From: Nesterenkonia alba DSM 19423
GTDB lineage: Bacteria > Actinomycetota > Actinomycetes > Actinomycetales > Micrococcaceae
Length of the DNA: 64,000 nt
NCBI RefSeq assembly: GCF_000421745.1
Contig: NZ_ATXP01000006.1
Coordinates: 1-64,000 of the forward strand
Direction of reading: 5' to 3'
The position numbers were made by a program, and so were the translations under genes. The number at the start of each line of letters is the position of its first letter. The stretch's first letter is position 1. The notes under the pieces are model-generated. The model was not told the origin of the DNA. It ran no database searches and saw only the letters and a program-made list of their open reading frames with translations. This document shows positions 22,915 through 63,533 of the stretch, piece by piece.

Positions 22915-22945
22915 TTGCCTGTAGTTCTACAGAATGTAGTACTGT
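22915..22945 (+). promoter_or_regulatory. atp operon promoter with TTCTAC-N5-GTAGTA dyad
   Basis: TTGCCT (22915-22920) and TACTGT (22940-22945) form a promoter with 19-bp spacing. Between them lies TTCTAC-AGAAT-GTAGTA (22925-22941), also readable as CTACA-N3-TGTAG. It is joined to a perfect dyad CTGTAG-TT-CTACAG (22919-22932). The same 17-bp pattern recurs upstream of ctaC and ctaE. The remaining 150 nt to atpB is a leader with no ORF I can support. Confidence 0.55.
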
Positions 22946-23098: not shown

Positions 23099-23911
23099 TT
23101 GTCTACGCTTGCCCTGAGCGCCGCCGATGGAGGCGAGTTTCAGCCCCCTACTATTAATGACACCCACTTGCCCGAGATTCTCCCCTGGGGTGCTGAGTGG
23201 GGAGAGGGGATCCTCGGCAAGAACGGTCTTGTTCTTCTGGCGTCTGTGGTGGTGATCTGGGCGTTCTTCCATTTCGCTATCCGTCGGCAGTCACTGGTGC
23301 CCACCCGGACTCAGTTCATTGCCGAAGGAATCTACGGCTTTGTGCGCAACTCCCTGGGGCGCGACATCCTGGGTGAGAAGTACTTCAAACCCTGGGTGCC
23401 CTTCCTCTTTGCTGTGTTTACGTTCATTCTGGTGAACAACCTCATGGGTGCTATCCCGGTCATCCAGATGCCGAGCTTCTCCCACGCCGGTCCCGCCTAT
23501 GTGATGGCCGGCATTATTTATGTCACCTGGATCGGGGTGGGCATTCAAAAGCACGGGTTGCGTTACTTCAAGTTGGTCTGCATCCCCTCAGGCGTGCCGT
23601 GGTATGTGATGCCGGTGATGATCCCGCTGGAGATCATCTCCAACTTCATTGTCCGGCCCCTGACGCACTCCCTGCGTGTGATGGCTGTGATGCTGGCCGG
23701 CCACATGATCGTGATGATCGCGGCCTCCGGTGCGGAGTTCTTGGTGACGCAACAGGACAACATTTTCCTCAACGCCACCGGCATCATCGTGCTGATCGGC
23801 TTCGTGCCCCTGTACTTCCTCGAGTTGCTGCTGATGGTCTTGCAAGCATTCGTCTTTGCCCTGCTGACCGCCATTTATCTGCAGGGCGCCATTGAGGCTG
23901 ACGCGCACTAG
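23099..23911 (+). CDS. atpB: ATP synthase subunit a
   Basis: Fo proton-channel subunit, about 270 residues with five or six membrane helices. The conserved helix IVRPLTHSLRVMAVMLAGHM carries the essential Arg next to the c-ring, and the final helix ELLLMVLQAFVFALLTAIYL is typical. I chose TTG 23099 because GAGAGGA (23086-23092) sits 6 nt upstream and the N-terminus then matches actinobacterial AtpB (STLALSAADGGEFQPPTIND). ATG 23084 is in frame but lacks a ribosome binding site. First gene of atpBEFHAGDC. Confidence 0.95.
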   Translation: MSTLALSAADGGEFQPPTINDTHLPEILPWGAEWGEGILGKNGLVLLASVVVIWAFFHFAIRRQSLVPTRTQFIAEGIYGFVRNSLGRDILGEKYFKPWVPFLFAVFTFILVNNLMGAIPVIQMPSFSHAGPAYVMAGIIYVTWIGVGIQKHGLRYFKLVCIPSGVPWYVMPVMIPLEIISNFIVRPLTHSLRVMAVMLAGHMIVMIAASGAEFLVTQQDNIFLNATGIIVLIGFVPLYFLELLLMVLQAFVFALLTAIYLQGAIEADAH

Positions 23912-56726: not shown

Positions 56727-57038
56727 GGCGCTCGGCGTCATAAAACTGACATGAAACGGCGTCGTCGTTCTGATGACAGCCCTACTGCGGACCCCGCTCT
56801 CTCAGGTGTTCTACGGCCTGTAGAAGCGGGGTTCGTGCGTGTCAGGGGGCTTTGACATCGCGTGGAGAACCCGATGACGCCCTGACTTCGGCGTGGTGAG
56901 GTCGCCCGCTCCTCTACGACTCGTAGTAGTCTGGATCCCAGCGTCAAACGTCGCAGGCGGCTGTTCAGGACAGCGGCCGTGCAACCCAAGTGATGTGAGC
57001 GGGAGACCGCGCACAAATGAAGACGAAAGGGCCGTTGA
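56727..57038 (+). promoter_or_regulatory. ctaC promoter region with two CTAC-N5-GTAG dyads
   Basis: Non-coding 312 nt. Site 1: TTCTAC-GGCCT-GTAGAA (56809-56825), nested in an 8-bp repeat ACCCCGCT/AGCGGGGT (56791-56798, 56825-56832). Site 2: CTCTAC-GACTC-GTAGTA (56912-56928), whose right arm touches a -10 TAGTCT (56927-56932). Predicted start near 56939, giving a 100-nt leader. The ribosome binding site GAAAGGG precedes GTG 57039. No ORF is supported. Confidence 0.6.
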
Positions 57039-57914
57039 GTGAGTTCGCATCAACGAACCGGCCGCCAAGGCCGTACGGTCAAGGGGCTGGCTCTCGCCGG
57101 TGTGGCACTTCTGGTGCTCACCGCCTGCGCTGAGGATCACCCGGCTCGCCGGGGCTGGCTGCCTGGTGAGCGGGATACCACGTCCAACACTCCGGTGCTG
57201 ACCGACCTGTGGGTCGGCTCCTGGATCGCCGCACTGGCAGTTGGACTGGTCACCTGGGGGCTGATGCTGTGGTGCATGGTCGCCTACCGGCGCCGCCGTG
57301 GCGAGACCGGCTACCCTCGCCAGCTGGCCTACAACGTGCCGCTGGAGATCATGTACACCGTACTGCCGTTGGTGATGGTCTCAGTGTTCTTCTACTACAC
57401 CGACCAAGCCCAGCGGGAAGTCGATGAGCCCTATGCTGACCCGGACCTCACCGTGGAGGTCTACGGCAAGCAGTGGGCCTGGGACTTCAACTACACCTAT
57501 GGGGATGAAGAGCGCCACTACTACGGAGTGCAGGCGCACCTCACCGGGGAGGAGGGCGTCCGGGACACCCTGCCGACCCTCTACCTTCCGGTGGACAACG
57601 CCGTGGAGTTCGAGCTGAAGTCCCGCGACGTGATCCACTCCTTCTGGGTTCCGGCCTTCCTGCAGAAGCGAGACATGATCCCCGGCCGTACCACCTACAT
57701 GTACCTGACTCCTCAAGAGGAGGGCAGCTTCGACGGCAAGTGCGCAGAGCTCTGCGGTGAATACCACTCGGAGATGCTCTTCAACGTGGAAGTTGTTCCC
57801 GAGGACGAATTCGTCGAGTACCTGCAGACCCTTGATGAGGGGCACCTGGGCGATGAGTACAACCGCAACCCCAATCTTCATGACCAGGAAGAACTGACCG
57901 GAGGGGATGACTGA
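57039..57914 (+). CDS. ctaC: cytochrome c oxidase subunit II
   Basis: CuA-bearing subunit of the aa3 oxidase, 291 residues. A lipoprotein signal peptide ends at the lipobox LTAC (Cys30). Two membrane helices follow (about 57-80 and 104-125), then the cupredoxin domain with QWAWDFNY (about 144-151), the CuA ligands [12 protein letters not shown] (about 234-245) and the upstream His in [11 protein letters not shown] 57039 is used. First gene of ctaC-ctaD-ctaF. Confidence 0.96.
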
Positions 57915-57916
57915 GC

Positions 57917-59641
57917 ATGACGACAATGGAGTACTCCTCCGATGAGGCCCGGGGTGCAGTGCGCAGTGCGCCCACATCCAAGGGTCAGGTGGTCGTCAAC
58001 TGGCTGACCACCACTGACCACAAGGTGATCGGGTACATGTACCTGATCTCCTCGTTCATTTTCTTCTGCGTCGGCGGTGTGATGGCGCTCATCATCCGCG
58101 CCGAGCTGTTCGAGCCGGGGATGCAGTTCCTACAGACCAAGGAACAGTACAACCAGCTGTTCACCATGCACGGCACGATCATGCTGCTGATGTTCGCTAC
58201 CCCGCTTTTCGCCGGGTTCGCCAACGTCATGATGCCGTTGCAGATCGGTGCTCCCGATGTGGCCTTCCCGCGGCTGAACGCTCTAGCCTTCTGGCTGTTC
58301 CTCTTCGGTTCCTTGGTCGCCATGGCCGGGTTCCTCACCCCCCAGGGTGCGGCCAGCTTCGGTTGGTTCGCCTACGCCCCGCTGTCTGACACCACTTATT
58401 CACCCGGCGTCGGGGGAGACCTGTGGGTGCTGGGCCTGGGGCTAACCGGTTTCGGAACGATCGCAGGTGCCGTCAACTTCATCACCACGATCATCTGCAT
58501 GCGCGCCCCGGGTATGACGATGTGGCGGATGCCCATCTTCACCTGGAACGTGCTCATCACCTCGATCCTGGTGCTGATGGCCTTCCCGCCGCTGGCCGCG
58601 GCATTATTCGGTCTGGCCATGGATCGCCGCCTCGGCGGGCACATTTTCGATCCGGAGTCCGGTGGTGCGATTCTGTGGCAGCACCTGTTCTGGTTCTTCG
58701 GCCACCCCGAGGTCTACATCATTGCGCTGCCATTCTTCGGCATCGTCTCGGAGATCATCCCGGTCTTTAGCCGCAAACCGATCTTCGGGTACAAGGGGCT
58801 GGTCTACGCGACGATCGCGATCGCTGCGCTCTCGGTGACGGTGTGGGCGCACCACATGTACGTCACCGGTGCGGTCATGCTGCCGTTCTTCGCGCTGATG
58901 ACGATGCTCATCGCCGTGCCGACCGGTGTGAAATTCTTCAACTGGATCGGCACCATGTGGAGAGGGTCCATTACCTTCGAGACACCTATGTTGTGGACCC
59001 TCGGCTTCCTGGTGACGTTCCTCTTCGGTGGTCTGACCGGTGTCATCCTGGCCTCCCCGCCGCTGGACTTCCACCTCTCCGACACGTATTTCGTCGTCGG
59101 ACACTTCCACTACGTCATTTTCGGCACCGTGGTGTTCGCCATGTTCGCGGGCTTCCACTTCTGGTGGCCCAAGTGGACCGGGAAGATGCTCAACGAGCGG
59201 CTGGGCAAGATCAGCTTCTGGATGCTGTTCATCGGCTTCCACGGCACCTTCATGATTCAGCACTGGCTGGGTGTGATGGGCATGCCGCGGCGGTACGCCG
59301 ACTACATGGTGGAAGACGGGTTCACCGCAATGAACCAGTTCTCCACGGTGTTCTCCATGCTGCTGGGTGCCTCCCTCATTCCGTTCTTCTGGAACGTGTG
59401 GATCACCCACCGCAAGGGCCGCCGTGTCTTGGTCGACGACCCCTGGGGCTTCGGTGGCTCCCTCGAGTGGGCCACCAGCTGCCCGCCCCCGCGGCACAAC
59501 TTCTACGCGCTGCCGCGGATTCGTTCCGAGCGCCCTGCCCTGGACCTGCACCACCCGGAACTCTCCGAGCGGCACAGCCTCCACACTCCCGCAGGAAAAG
59601 TGTTCGGCCCCGCCGACCAGAAGGACAAGGCAGGTATCTGA
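57917..59641 (+). CDS. ctaD: cytochrome c oxidase subunit I
   Basis: Heme-copper oxidase catalytic subunit, 574 residues with 12 membrane helices. Low-spin heme His in [11 protein letters not shown] (about 76-86), CuB His and cross-linked Tyr in [10 protein letters not shown] (about 257-266), CuB ligands in WAHHMYV (about 308-314), and heme ligands in GHFHYVIFG (about 394-402). The D and K proton channels appear canonical (A-type). ATG 57917 is 2 nt after ctaC. Confidence 0.97.
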
Positions 59642-61860: not shown

Positions 61861-61877
61861 TTCGACGACGTGTAGAA
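61861..61877 (+). promoter_or_regulatory. TTCGAC-N5-GTAGAA dyad upstream of ctaE
   Basis: TTCGAC-GACGT-GTAGAA matches the atp and ctaC upstream dyads with one substitution in the left arm. It is 144 nt before the ctaE start, just after trpD. Confidence 0.5.
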
Positions 61878-62020: not shown

Positions 62021-62674
62021 GTGACATCCGCAACCGAAGCCCCAGCTGCCGCCGGCGCACCGCGCACGCTGCCGAACCGCCCCAACATGGTCTCTGTGGG
62101 GACCATGGTGTGGCTGACCAGCGAGCTGATGTTCTTCGCCGGCCTCTTCGCCATGTTCTTCACGCTGCGCTCGACTCAGCCGGAGATGTGGGCTGAGTAC
62201 AGCGCACGCCTCGACGTCGTGCTGGCCACCATCATTACGGTGATCCTGGTCTCGTCCTCGGTGACCGCACAGTTCGGCGTCTTTGCCGCCGAGCGTCACC
62301 AGCCGCGCCGGACCGGCGGACTCTTCCAGTTCACCAAATGGGGCATGGTCGAGTGGTACATCGCCTCCTTCATCCTGGGGTCGATCTTCATCGCCGGTCA
62401 GAGTTTCGAGTTCGCTGAGTTGGTCTCCCACGGGGTGGCCATTCAGACCAACTCCTTCGGTTCGGCCTTCTACATCACCACAGGCTTCCACGGGATTCAC
62501 GTGCTGGGCGGACTGTTCGCCTTCCTCTACGTGATTGCCCGTGCCTACTTCTCCGTGAAGTTCACCCATAAGGAAGAGTCGGCAGCCATCGTCGTCTCCT
62601 ACTACTGGCACTTCGTGGACGTCATCTGGATCGCCCTCTGGGCAGCGGTCTACATCCTGCCGCTGTTCGTCTAG
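62021..62674 (+). CDS. ctaE: cytochrome c oxidase subunit III
   Basis: Oxidase subunit of 217 residues with five membrane helices. Typical motifs are TMVWLTSELMFFAGLFAMFFTL (split across about 27-48), AFYITTGFHGIHVLGG (about 149-164) and SYYWHFVDVIWIALW (about 193-207). It is linked to the cytochrome bc1 genes qcrC and qcrA as in other actinobacteria, whose bc1 and aa3 complexes form a supercomplex. GTG 62021 coincides with the predicted transcription start. Confidence 0.96.
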   Translation: MTSATEAPAAAGAPRTLPNRPNMVSVGTMVWLTSELMFFAGLFAMFFTLRSTQPEMWAEYSARLDVVLATIITVILVSSSVTAQFGVFAAERHQPRRTGGLFQFTKWGMVEWYIASFILGSIFIAGQSFEFAELVSHGVAIQTNSFGSAFYITTGFHGIHVLGGLFAFLYVIARAYFSVKFTHKEESAAIVVSYYWHFVDVIWIALWAAVYILPLFV

Positions 62675-62732: not shown

Positions 62733-63533
62733 GTGAAGGCACTCTCGCAGAAGCGCCGCCACCCGTTCGCGTTCGTGGCGCTGCTCCTTTTGGGGCTGCT
62801 GCTGACCGGCGGACTCTACGCCGCGGCGACCACGGTCAACCAGGCTCAGGCCACCGGCGATGTCCCGGACGGGTACTCCGCCGACCAGGTCGAAGAAGGT
62901 GAGCGGCTCTTCGTGGCCAACTGCGCCACCTGCCACGGCATCAATGCCGAGGGCAGCGACGCCGGACCTTCCCTCGTCGGCGTGGGTGCGGCTTCCGTCG
63001 AATTCCAGGTGGGTACCGGTCGGATGCCCATGCAGATGCAGGGTCCCCAGGCCCAGCAGAAGCCACCGCAGTTCAATGACGAACAGACCACTCAGCTGGC
63101 TGCCTATGTCGCCTCCCTGGGAGCCGGACCGGCAGTGCCCGATGAGCAGTACCTTGATGTGGACCAGGGCGATCCTGCCCGTGGTGGCGAGCTGTTCCGC
63201 ATCAACTGCGCTATGTGCCACAACGCAGCCGGTGCAGGTGGCGCTCTGACTGAAGGTAAATTCGCTCCGTCGCTGCACGGTGTGGATGAGGTTCATATCT
63301 ACACCGCTATGACCACCGGTCCGCAGAACATGCCGGTGTTCAGCGACTCCAACATTCCGCCGGAGGACAAGCGGGACATCATCGCCTTCCTGAAGACCTA
63401 TGAGGCACAGGGGAGTCCGGGAGGGTTCTCCCTTGGCTTCCTTGGACCGGTTTCCGAGGGGCTTCTCATCTGGACACTCGGACTGGCGCTGCTCATCGGT
63501 TCGATGGTCTGGCTGACGTCCCGATCGAGCTGA
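62733..63533 (+). CDS. qcrC: diheme cytochrome c subunit of the bc1 complex
   Basis: Membrane-anchored diheme cytochrome c1-type protein, 266 residues. An N-terminal anchor (about 12-33), two CxxCH heme sites (CATCH about 64-68 and CAMCH about 160-164), with axial Met candidates after each, and a C-terminal helix (about 238-260). The second heme domain carries electrons directly to CuA, replacing a soluble cytochrome c. GTG 62733 is preceded by CAAAGGAA. Confidence 0.96.
   Translation: MKALSQKRRHPFAFVALLLLGLLLTGGLYAAATTVNQAQATGDVPDGYSADQVEEGERLFVANCATCHGINAEGSDAGPSLVGVGAASVEFQVGTGRMPMQMQGPQAQQKPPQFNDEQTTQLAAYVASLGAGPAVPDEQYLDVDQGDPARGGELFRINCAMCHNAAGAGGALTEGKFAPSLHGVDEVHIYTAMTTGPQNMPVFSDSNIPPEDKRDIIAFLKTYEAQGSPGGFSLGFLGPVSEGLLIWTLGLALLIGSMVWLTSRSS

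Follow-up and report, generated by a model that had tools for sequence, protein, structure and literature searches.

The dyad TTCTAC-N5-GTAGAA in Nesterenkonia alba is probably the operator of a BlaI-family repressor, proposed to govern a respiration regulon with an M56/M48-type protease as its partner. Sequence comparison shows the operator with its strict spacing and its targets, the way it overlaps conserved promoter-like elements, the joint presence of operator and blaI, and a coupled protease gene; from these we infer binding by BlaI, repression, proteolysis and the signal. The initial annotation had assigned four such dyads to one regulator and had guessed at a BlaI-type protein. This proposal gains support from the excess of sites in the genome, from a target set that includes blaI, and from the conservation of the site at promoters.

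The features observed in the window, which is the whole 64,000-nucleotide stretch that was analysed, are as follows.

22925..22941, no strand: operator of atpB, TTCTACAGAATGTAGTA, one change from the perfect palindrome
22940..22945, plus strand: putative -10 element TACTGT, overlapping the 3' half of the atpB operator
23099..23911, plus strand: atpB (ATP synthase subunit a), first gene past the operator, PF00119 E 6.8e-49
56809..56825, no strand: ctaC operator 1, TTCTACGGCCTGTAGAA, perfect palindrome, from the motif scan
56912..56928, no strand: ctaC operator 2, CTCTACGACTCGTAGTA, CTCTAC-N5-GTAGTA, from the motif scan
56927..56932, plus strand: possible, weak -10 element TAGTCT at ctaC site 2
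57102..57914, plus strand: ctaC (cytochrome c oxidase subunit II), PF00116 E 1.7e-19
57917..59641, plus strand: ctaD (cytochrome c oxidase subunit I), PF00115 E 6.6e-163
61861..61877, no strand: ctaE-qcrC operator, TTCGACGACGTGTAGAA, one change, from the motif scan
62021..62674, plus strand: ctaE (cytochrome c oxidase subunit III), PF00510 E 1.4e-16
62733..63533, plus strand: qcrC-like cytochrome c gene, two haem domains matched, PF13442 E 1.8e-22 and PF00034 E 2.9e-17

The genes, including the start codon of atpB, were called with a simple script of our own, and some gene starts are therefore uncertain. With up to two mismatches, TTCTAC-N5-GTAGWA gave 13 strand-hits in the window, against a mean of 1.37 (maximum 5) in 100 shuffled sequences, none of which reached 13. 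The four dyads described earlier were all recovered at their positions, and they are the only ones with at most one mismatch, in agreement with the initial annotation, in which no further copy was noticed by eye. The arms of the two ctaC sites had been called the same as those at atpB, which is not quite so for 56912, where C replaces T at the first base. The hexamers said to follow GTAG, TACTGT (22940-22945) at atpB and TAGTCT (56927-56932) at ctaC site 2, are present.

In the genome (2.59 Mb, 36 contigs), a scan with TTCTAC-N(0-12)-GTAGAA detected 23 perfect palindromes. Only 0.020 (order-2 model) to 0.035 (base composition) are expected, and the genome scan proposed at the outset thus reveals a strong excess. 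The spacer is 5 bp in all 23 sites although 0 to 12 bp were permitted; other spacer lengths (0 of 23) are excluded, and the reversed-pattern control gave 4. When one mismatch and W at one base were allowed, 39 and 35 sites per strand were found, against 13 and 14 for the reversed pattern. Every perfect site lies upstream of a gene, 22 of the 23 within 113 bp; the exception is ctaC site 1 at 277 bp, and one site overlaps the final bases of the preceding gene. For comparison, non-coding bases that lie no more than 300 bp upstream of a gene start make up 7.0% of the window. Among the nine 1-mismatch genome sites annotated, which are a part of all such sites and were taken with 2-mismatch sites inside genes left out, five are inside genes, and this position shows the background level. 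The centre of the operator is not random, with a purine at position 7 in 20 of 23 sites and a pyrimidine at position 11 in 19 of 23. Eight relatives contain 9 to 18 perfect sites each, with a reversed control of 0. The dyad is real and far beyond chance. Separately, the sequence TTCTTCCACCGGTAGTA occurs six times, on G000:C3, C9, C14, C29, C30 and C31, at least five copies being within ~140 bases of a contig end; it probably represents an IS-like repeat where the assembly broke, with no connection to the operator.

The 23 perfect sites correspond to 22 loci, 11 of which are plainly composed of respiratory or cofactor genes. The loci with a perfect site are listed here.

copC locus; copC is the second gene, after a His-rich protein
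hemQ locus
copD-ctaG locus; an 88-aa gene comes first
ribF operon; ribF is the third gene
ABC transporter with ctaA, facing a SufR-like regulator with sufB; the SufR-like match is below the NCBIfam cut-off
ctaB locus
cydA-cydB with two ABC exporter genes; two perfect sites, 23 bp apart
ctaC-ctaD locus
sdh locus; sdhC and sdhA identified by domain scan
ccs locus with resA, a DsbD-type (ccdA-like) gene and resB
SURF1 locus
blaI and protease locus; twelfth of the 22, outside the 11 respiratory or cofactor loci
carD, facing a lipoprotein
lysS (lysyl-tRNA synthetase), L030:2545-4065, G000:C11; operator 18 bp before it
lactate-type MFS transporter (306.8 bits, cut-off 320), facing DUF6457 with a moeA-like gene
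two universal stress protein loci, one facing an aldolase
P-type cation ATPase
SpaA-like surface protein of 1098 aa with a SpaA_2 match, L033:4190-7486, G000:C12; operator 113 bp before it
Pyridox_ox_2 protein
L021 and L032:4122 loci, with membrane-like proteins without family

Sites with one mismatch precede atpB, ctaE-qcrC, hemA facing hemE, and a 143-aa family-less protein (L037). The claim that all targets belong to oxidative phosphorylation is right for atp, cta, qcr and cyd, but too narrow, since the supply of haem, copper, FAD and Fe-S is covered as well. It fails further in that about half of the perfect-site loci have other or unassigned roles, and this half without evident respiratory role counts against the reading as a respiration regulon. 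The distribution predicted from the window, over atp, cta, qcr, cyd, nuo/ndh and a blaI-like gene, was found except for nuo/ndh, which is absent among the operator sites annotated in the genome.

Several single loci deserve mention. The protein with the SpaA_2 match fits oddly into a respiration regulon. Just before the operator of the copC locus lies a gene (L019:3109-3942, G000:C1) for a protein of the ComA (phosphosulfolactate synthase) family. Of the two cydA operators, the nearer leaves only 8 bp to the called start of cydA (L028:12560-12640), hinting at a very short or absent leader. The small proteins at L021:3618-3998 and L037:3612-4043 have no Pfam match and appear membrane-like by eye. 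The operator is kept in relatives at both genes (L128 and L137 for the former; L139, L151 and L157 for the latter), and the two proteins are candidate respiratory subunits or assembly factors.

The blaI gene is outside the window, at G000:C4:88636-88971 on the minus strand (L026:5631-5972). The PF03965 (Penicillinase_R winged-helix) match scores 83.1 bits against a cut-off of 22.6 and spans residues 4-112, the whole protein. It is the sole PF03965 gene above cut-off in the genome, a second match (C6:123986, 17 bits) being below it, and a perfect operator is located ~55 bp before it. In a profile search of solved structures, two PDB entries matched BlaI: the best was 2g9w (E 1.3e-19), which we take to be M. 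tuberculosis BlaI, Rv1846c, and the other was S. aureus BlaI, 1sd4 (E 5.7e-6). The named relatives of blaI, 20 Nesterenkonia/Garicola loci at 73-87% identity plus two distant matches, assign it to Nesterenkonia. With at most one mismatch, the site is present in the blaI promoter of all 20 Nesterenkonia/Garicola loci and of all 30 best-scoring family loci, own locus included; the shuffled rate is 0.7%. Class-wide, 28 of the 30 best loci were used, the own locus and G017 being left out. CTAC-N5-GTAG was found within 300 bp upstream of blaI in 21 of 28, the spacer being 5 bp in all although 3 to 7 were permitted; four others retain one decayed half only, and three have none.

The position of the operator relative to promoter-like elements is conserved at blaI and atpB. 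In 21 of 21 sequences at blaI, 18-19 bp separate the end of the operator from a -10-like TAT[CT][CGT]T, and this distance places its 3' half where the -35 element of blaI would be. At atpB, a site with at most two mismatches is present in 24 of 30 Nesterenkonia promoters and missing in six; all 24 sites are TTCTAC-N5-GTAGTA with one mismatch to the palindrome, and all are followed directly after GTAG by TAnnnT. The presumed -10 takes its TA from the last two operator bases, and this would account for the departure of the atpB site from the perfect palindrome. In the family sample, the atpB site is present in 4 of 30 loci and missing in 26, and it is thus confined mainly to Nesterenkonia; these losses, like the six within the genus, count against the reading. 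At ctaC, a site with at most two mismatches is present in 25 of 30 family loci, and 22 of 30 have the exact CTCTAC-N5-GTAGTA; of the five genomes that lack it, two are without BlaI and a third has only a divergent one. The homologue of ctaE in N. pannonica has a perfect palindrome upstream (L125:3001). The conservation predicted for these promoters was thus observed at blaI and ctaC, and at atpB within the genus. The suggestion of a -10 element directly after GTAG is well supported for atpB (24 of 24 Nesterenkonia sites) and weak for ctaC. There, TAnnnT follows GTAG in only 3 of the 25 sites listed, 22 of 25 ending in GTAGTA, and TAGTCT at ctaC site 2 is shared with the other sampled Nesterenkonia but not with most of the family.

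At blaI and atpB, the arrangement is consistent with a repressor that acts by occlusion. It is possible, if rather unlikely, that BlaI acts in both directions, repressing one set of genes (e.g., cydA) and activating another (e.g., the Cu-dependent oxidase). The targets span both a Cu-dependent oxidase (aa3, with CopC and CopD-CtaG) and one free of Cu (bd), and there is a precedent in PetR, which acts with the protease PetP as a repressor of petE and an activator of petJ (PMC7896320). However, the promoter-like elements that can be placed, those at blaI and atpB, appear to lie under the operator, as expected for repression.

That the regulator is BlaI is suggested by the joint occurrence of the motif and blaI. 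In total, 120 family genomes from 32 genera were scanned with TWCTAC-N5-GTAGWA, and the counts per genome were tallied by eye. At least three sites were found in 99 of 102 genomes with a blaI orthologue, and at least one in all 102; none of the 18 genomes without an orthologue (no BlaI, or a divergent one only) has three or more. Eleven of the 12 genomes without BlaI match have 0 sites and one (G067) has 2, while the six genomes with a divergent BlaI only have 1, 1, 1, 1, 1 and 0. G069 and G111 have BlaI and 1 site each. The Fisher p-values for co-occurrence over the 120 genomes are 1e-18 and 2e-12; these are non-independent tests because the genomes share ancestry. The split between orthologous and divergent BlaI was drawn after the scores were seen: G095 (partial BlaI, E 8.6e-25) was counted as orthologue, and G052 and G098 (E ~1e-30, full length) as divergent. 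If G052 and G098 are moved to the orthologues, the counts are 99 of 104 versus 0 of 16. Within genus g37, the blaI+ genomes have 2, 3 and 2 sites and the two blaI- genomes 0 and 0; within g6, the blaI+ genomes have 1 and 1 and the three blaI- genomes 0, 0 and 0. The reversed control amounts to 0-5 per genome in the class sample and 0-8 in the family sample, where for a few blaI+ genomes, e.g., G057, G058, G118 and G119, it is as high as the motif count or higher. As the control is not zero, the argument outside Nesterenkonia is carried by promoter position, not by site number. Among 197 class genomes, the site was found in 60 and a BlaI-family match in 116; many of these matches are weak and may be paralogues.

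It is improbable that another transcription factor reads the palindrome and that blaI is merely one of its targets. The two sites of G067 without BlaI match would favour such a factor, and BlaI is assigned as the reader by deduction. Against this, the motif and the blaI orthologue co-occur over the 32 genera and are lost together within g37 and g6, the blaI promoter keeps the operator widely, and the CTAC/GTAG halves contain the TAC/GTA halves reported for the family (PMC7253601).

The targets are conserved along with the operator. In five relatives (N. pannonica and N. aurantiaca, with G017, G071 and G088 from other genera), 39 regions were examined, and in 34 an adjacent gene is homologous to a gene beside an own site; no such homologue was found in five (L121, L130, L141, L146 and L154). 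Kept in Nesterenkonia are ctaB, SURF1, sdhC, resA, ctaC and the ABC-ctaA locus, to which N. pannonica adds ctaE, hemQ and carD. In G017, G071 and G088, hemQ, the ABC locus, two genes of L036 and L037 and, in one genome, resA are kept; blaI and cydA are arranged back to back there, and the space between them contains two or three operators. In more distant families, the blaI-cydA pair is seen in six genomes, the cydA-like match of G164 being only 30%. Further site-bearing genes there are hemE, resA, a copC-like gene (29-33%) and a cydDC-like ABC exporter (32-34%). Of 20 regions from these distant genomes, 13 have a homologue of a gene beside an own site and seven have none (L277, L278, L279, L281, L284, L288 and L290).

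Directly behind blaI is a membrane protease gene (L026:4639-5604). The own copy, of 321 aa, matches M48 over the cut-off (37.7 bits) and M56 (PF05569) below it (14 bits). An ORF with HExxH follows blaI directly in 71 of 78 loci and is absent in seven; among these 78, the HExxH ORF of L111 looks to be in the wrong frame, and some loci may represent one genome twice. Sixteen chosen members of the protease, when aligned, all share AYCxP, HExxH and E-x-x-AD. In the domain scan of these 16, M48 was matched in all and BlaR1 M56 in 13; only M48/M56 matched at E <= 0.01, and no penicillin-binding or sensor domain did. The PDB matches of the protease profile are M48-type proteases. The kind of the own partner, with PF05569 below cut-off, is settled by its M48 match and by the set of 16. 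The cysteine of AYCxP, shortly before HExxH, is invariant in all 16 and is a possible redox or metal switch.

It is very improbable that the system serves a cell-wall (beta-lactam) response like staphylococcal BlaI/BlaR1, with the respiratory genes secondary. The family name points that way, in M. tuberculosis BlaR reportedly acts on BlaC via BlaI (PMC5473688), and one gene facing the sdhC site encodes a sugar-nucleotide transferase. However, no penicillin-binding domain is present in the 16 scanned proteases or in the 321-aa own copy, and no beta-lactamase was found among the proteins scanned at operator loci. A beta-lactam sensor system was rejected because no sensor domain is recognisable in the protease. 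The probability of chance or a non-regulatory repeat is negligible: the in-gene 1-mismatch sites and the repeated near-pattern 17-mer could be cited for it, but the perfect sites, all upstream of genes and with varied centres, exclude it by number.

A known relative is the M. tuberculosis pair of BlaI (Rv1846c) and BlaR (Rv1845c). To this BlaI we assign 2g9w, the better of the two structure matches, and the pair resembles the one described here in having atp and cytochrome bd targets; here the operator is at the atp operon in 24 of 30 Nesterenkonia promoters, while the mere 4 of 30 in the family sample count against the likeness. It differs in that the present regulator has 22 perfect-site loci, including haem, copper, FAD, Fe-S and cytochrome c maturation genes, a strict N5 operator, no beta-lactamase seen, and, in other genera, back-to-back blaI-cydA pairs. 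A mycobacterial ChIP study is said to list about five BlaI loci, beta-lactams reportedly derepress the M. tuberculosis BlaI regulon, and the ctaA-like gene rv1456c is also reported as a target of M. tuberculosis BlaI. The initial annotation mentions a mycobacterial BlaI upstream of ATP synthase genes. M. tuberculosis BlaI is reported to bind the ATP synthase operon promoter, and in M. smegmatis its overexpression is reported to lower the atp transcript (PMC12565901). BlaI is also said to bind promoters of cytochrome bd in addition to those of ATP synthase, and BlaR of mycobacteria is described as lacking an extracellular sensor (PMC5473688).

S. aureus BlaI/MecI with BlaR1/MecR1 likewise combines a PF03965 repressor with an M56-type membrane protease, and BlaR1 and MecR1 are described as M56 proteases that degrade their repressors (PMC7593790). 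Its structure match (1sd4) is only at E 5.7e-6, and the system here has no beta-lactam sensor domain, a spacer one bp longer, and no resistance gene seen among the targets. The reported BlaI/MecI/CopY operator is TACANNTGTA, TACA-N2-TGTA, i.e., TAC-N4-GTA (PMC7253601). It is typical of the studied members rather than of the PF03965 domain family as such; its TAC/GTA half-sites agree with those found here, while the spacing differs (5 bp here, 23 of 23), and the spacer longer by one bp counts against the reading as a BlaI operator. CopY/CopR belongs to the same superfamily, with a palindrome of TAC/GTA halves (PMC7253601), and copper genes are among the present targets. However, the own BlaI reaches only 32.3 bits for NCBIfam CopY_TcrY against a cut-off of 121.95 and contains no cysteine, hence no C-terminal CXC copper site, and a CopY-type copper repressor was therefore rejected. 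In cyanobacteria, PetR/PetP is reported as a pair of a BlaI-family factor and a BlaR1-family protease that places electron carriers under copper control (PMC7896320); that copper-controlled regulon has four proteins, whereas a large aerobic-chain regulon is proposed here. We place the protein in PF03965 and call the pair BlaI-BlaR-like, neither a beta-lactam sensor system nor CopY.

HrrSA of Corynebacterium glutamicum is a master regulator of haem and respiratory-chain genes. It is similar in exerting actinobacterial control over haem and the respiratory chain, but it is a two-component system with a different DNA site. Among the literature matches listed, no title or abstract opening concerned this operator or control of respiration by BlaI in Micrococcaceae; the search term "blai" also matched Blair and blaIMP. 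The retrieved parts of PMC11561320, PMC9618640 and PMC8829022 hold nothing useful on BlaI targets, and the whole word blaI is absent from PMC8765290.

For the BlaI repressor and its protease, the following mechanism is proposed. A winged-helix dimer of BlaI would bind the palindrome and cover the promoter, at the -35 of blaI and the -10 of atpB. It would hold down its own operon, the aa3 and bd oxidases, bc1, succinate dehydrogenase and ATP synthase, together with the genes for haem, copper, FAD, Fe-S and cytochrome c maturation. When respiration fails, the M56/M48-type protease encoded behind blaI would cleave BlaI, and the respiratory chain would be rebuilt together. The signal is presumably the respiratory, haem or copper state rather than a beta-lactam.

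To our knowledge, the joint setting of oxidase branches, ATP synthase and cofactor supply in high-GC Gram-positives is poorly understood. A named candidate regulator, a strict operator, a list of more than 20 putative target loci and a candidate protease partner are now available, all open to test in harmless environmental bacteria, and a new reading can be offered for the mycobacterial BlaI reported on ATP synthase and cytochrome bd promoters. As a tentative proposal, given somewhat less than an even chance, actinomycete BlaI-M56 may fundamentally be a master regulator for aerobic respiration, linked to cytochrome bd and with its own TWCTAC-N5-GTAGWA operator. Nesterenkonia would have expanded it to much of the chain and to cofactor supply, the beta-lactam role in mycobacteria would be a side branch, and the AYCxP cysteine could be the sensor.
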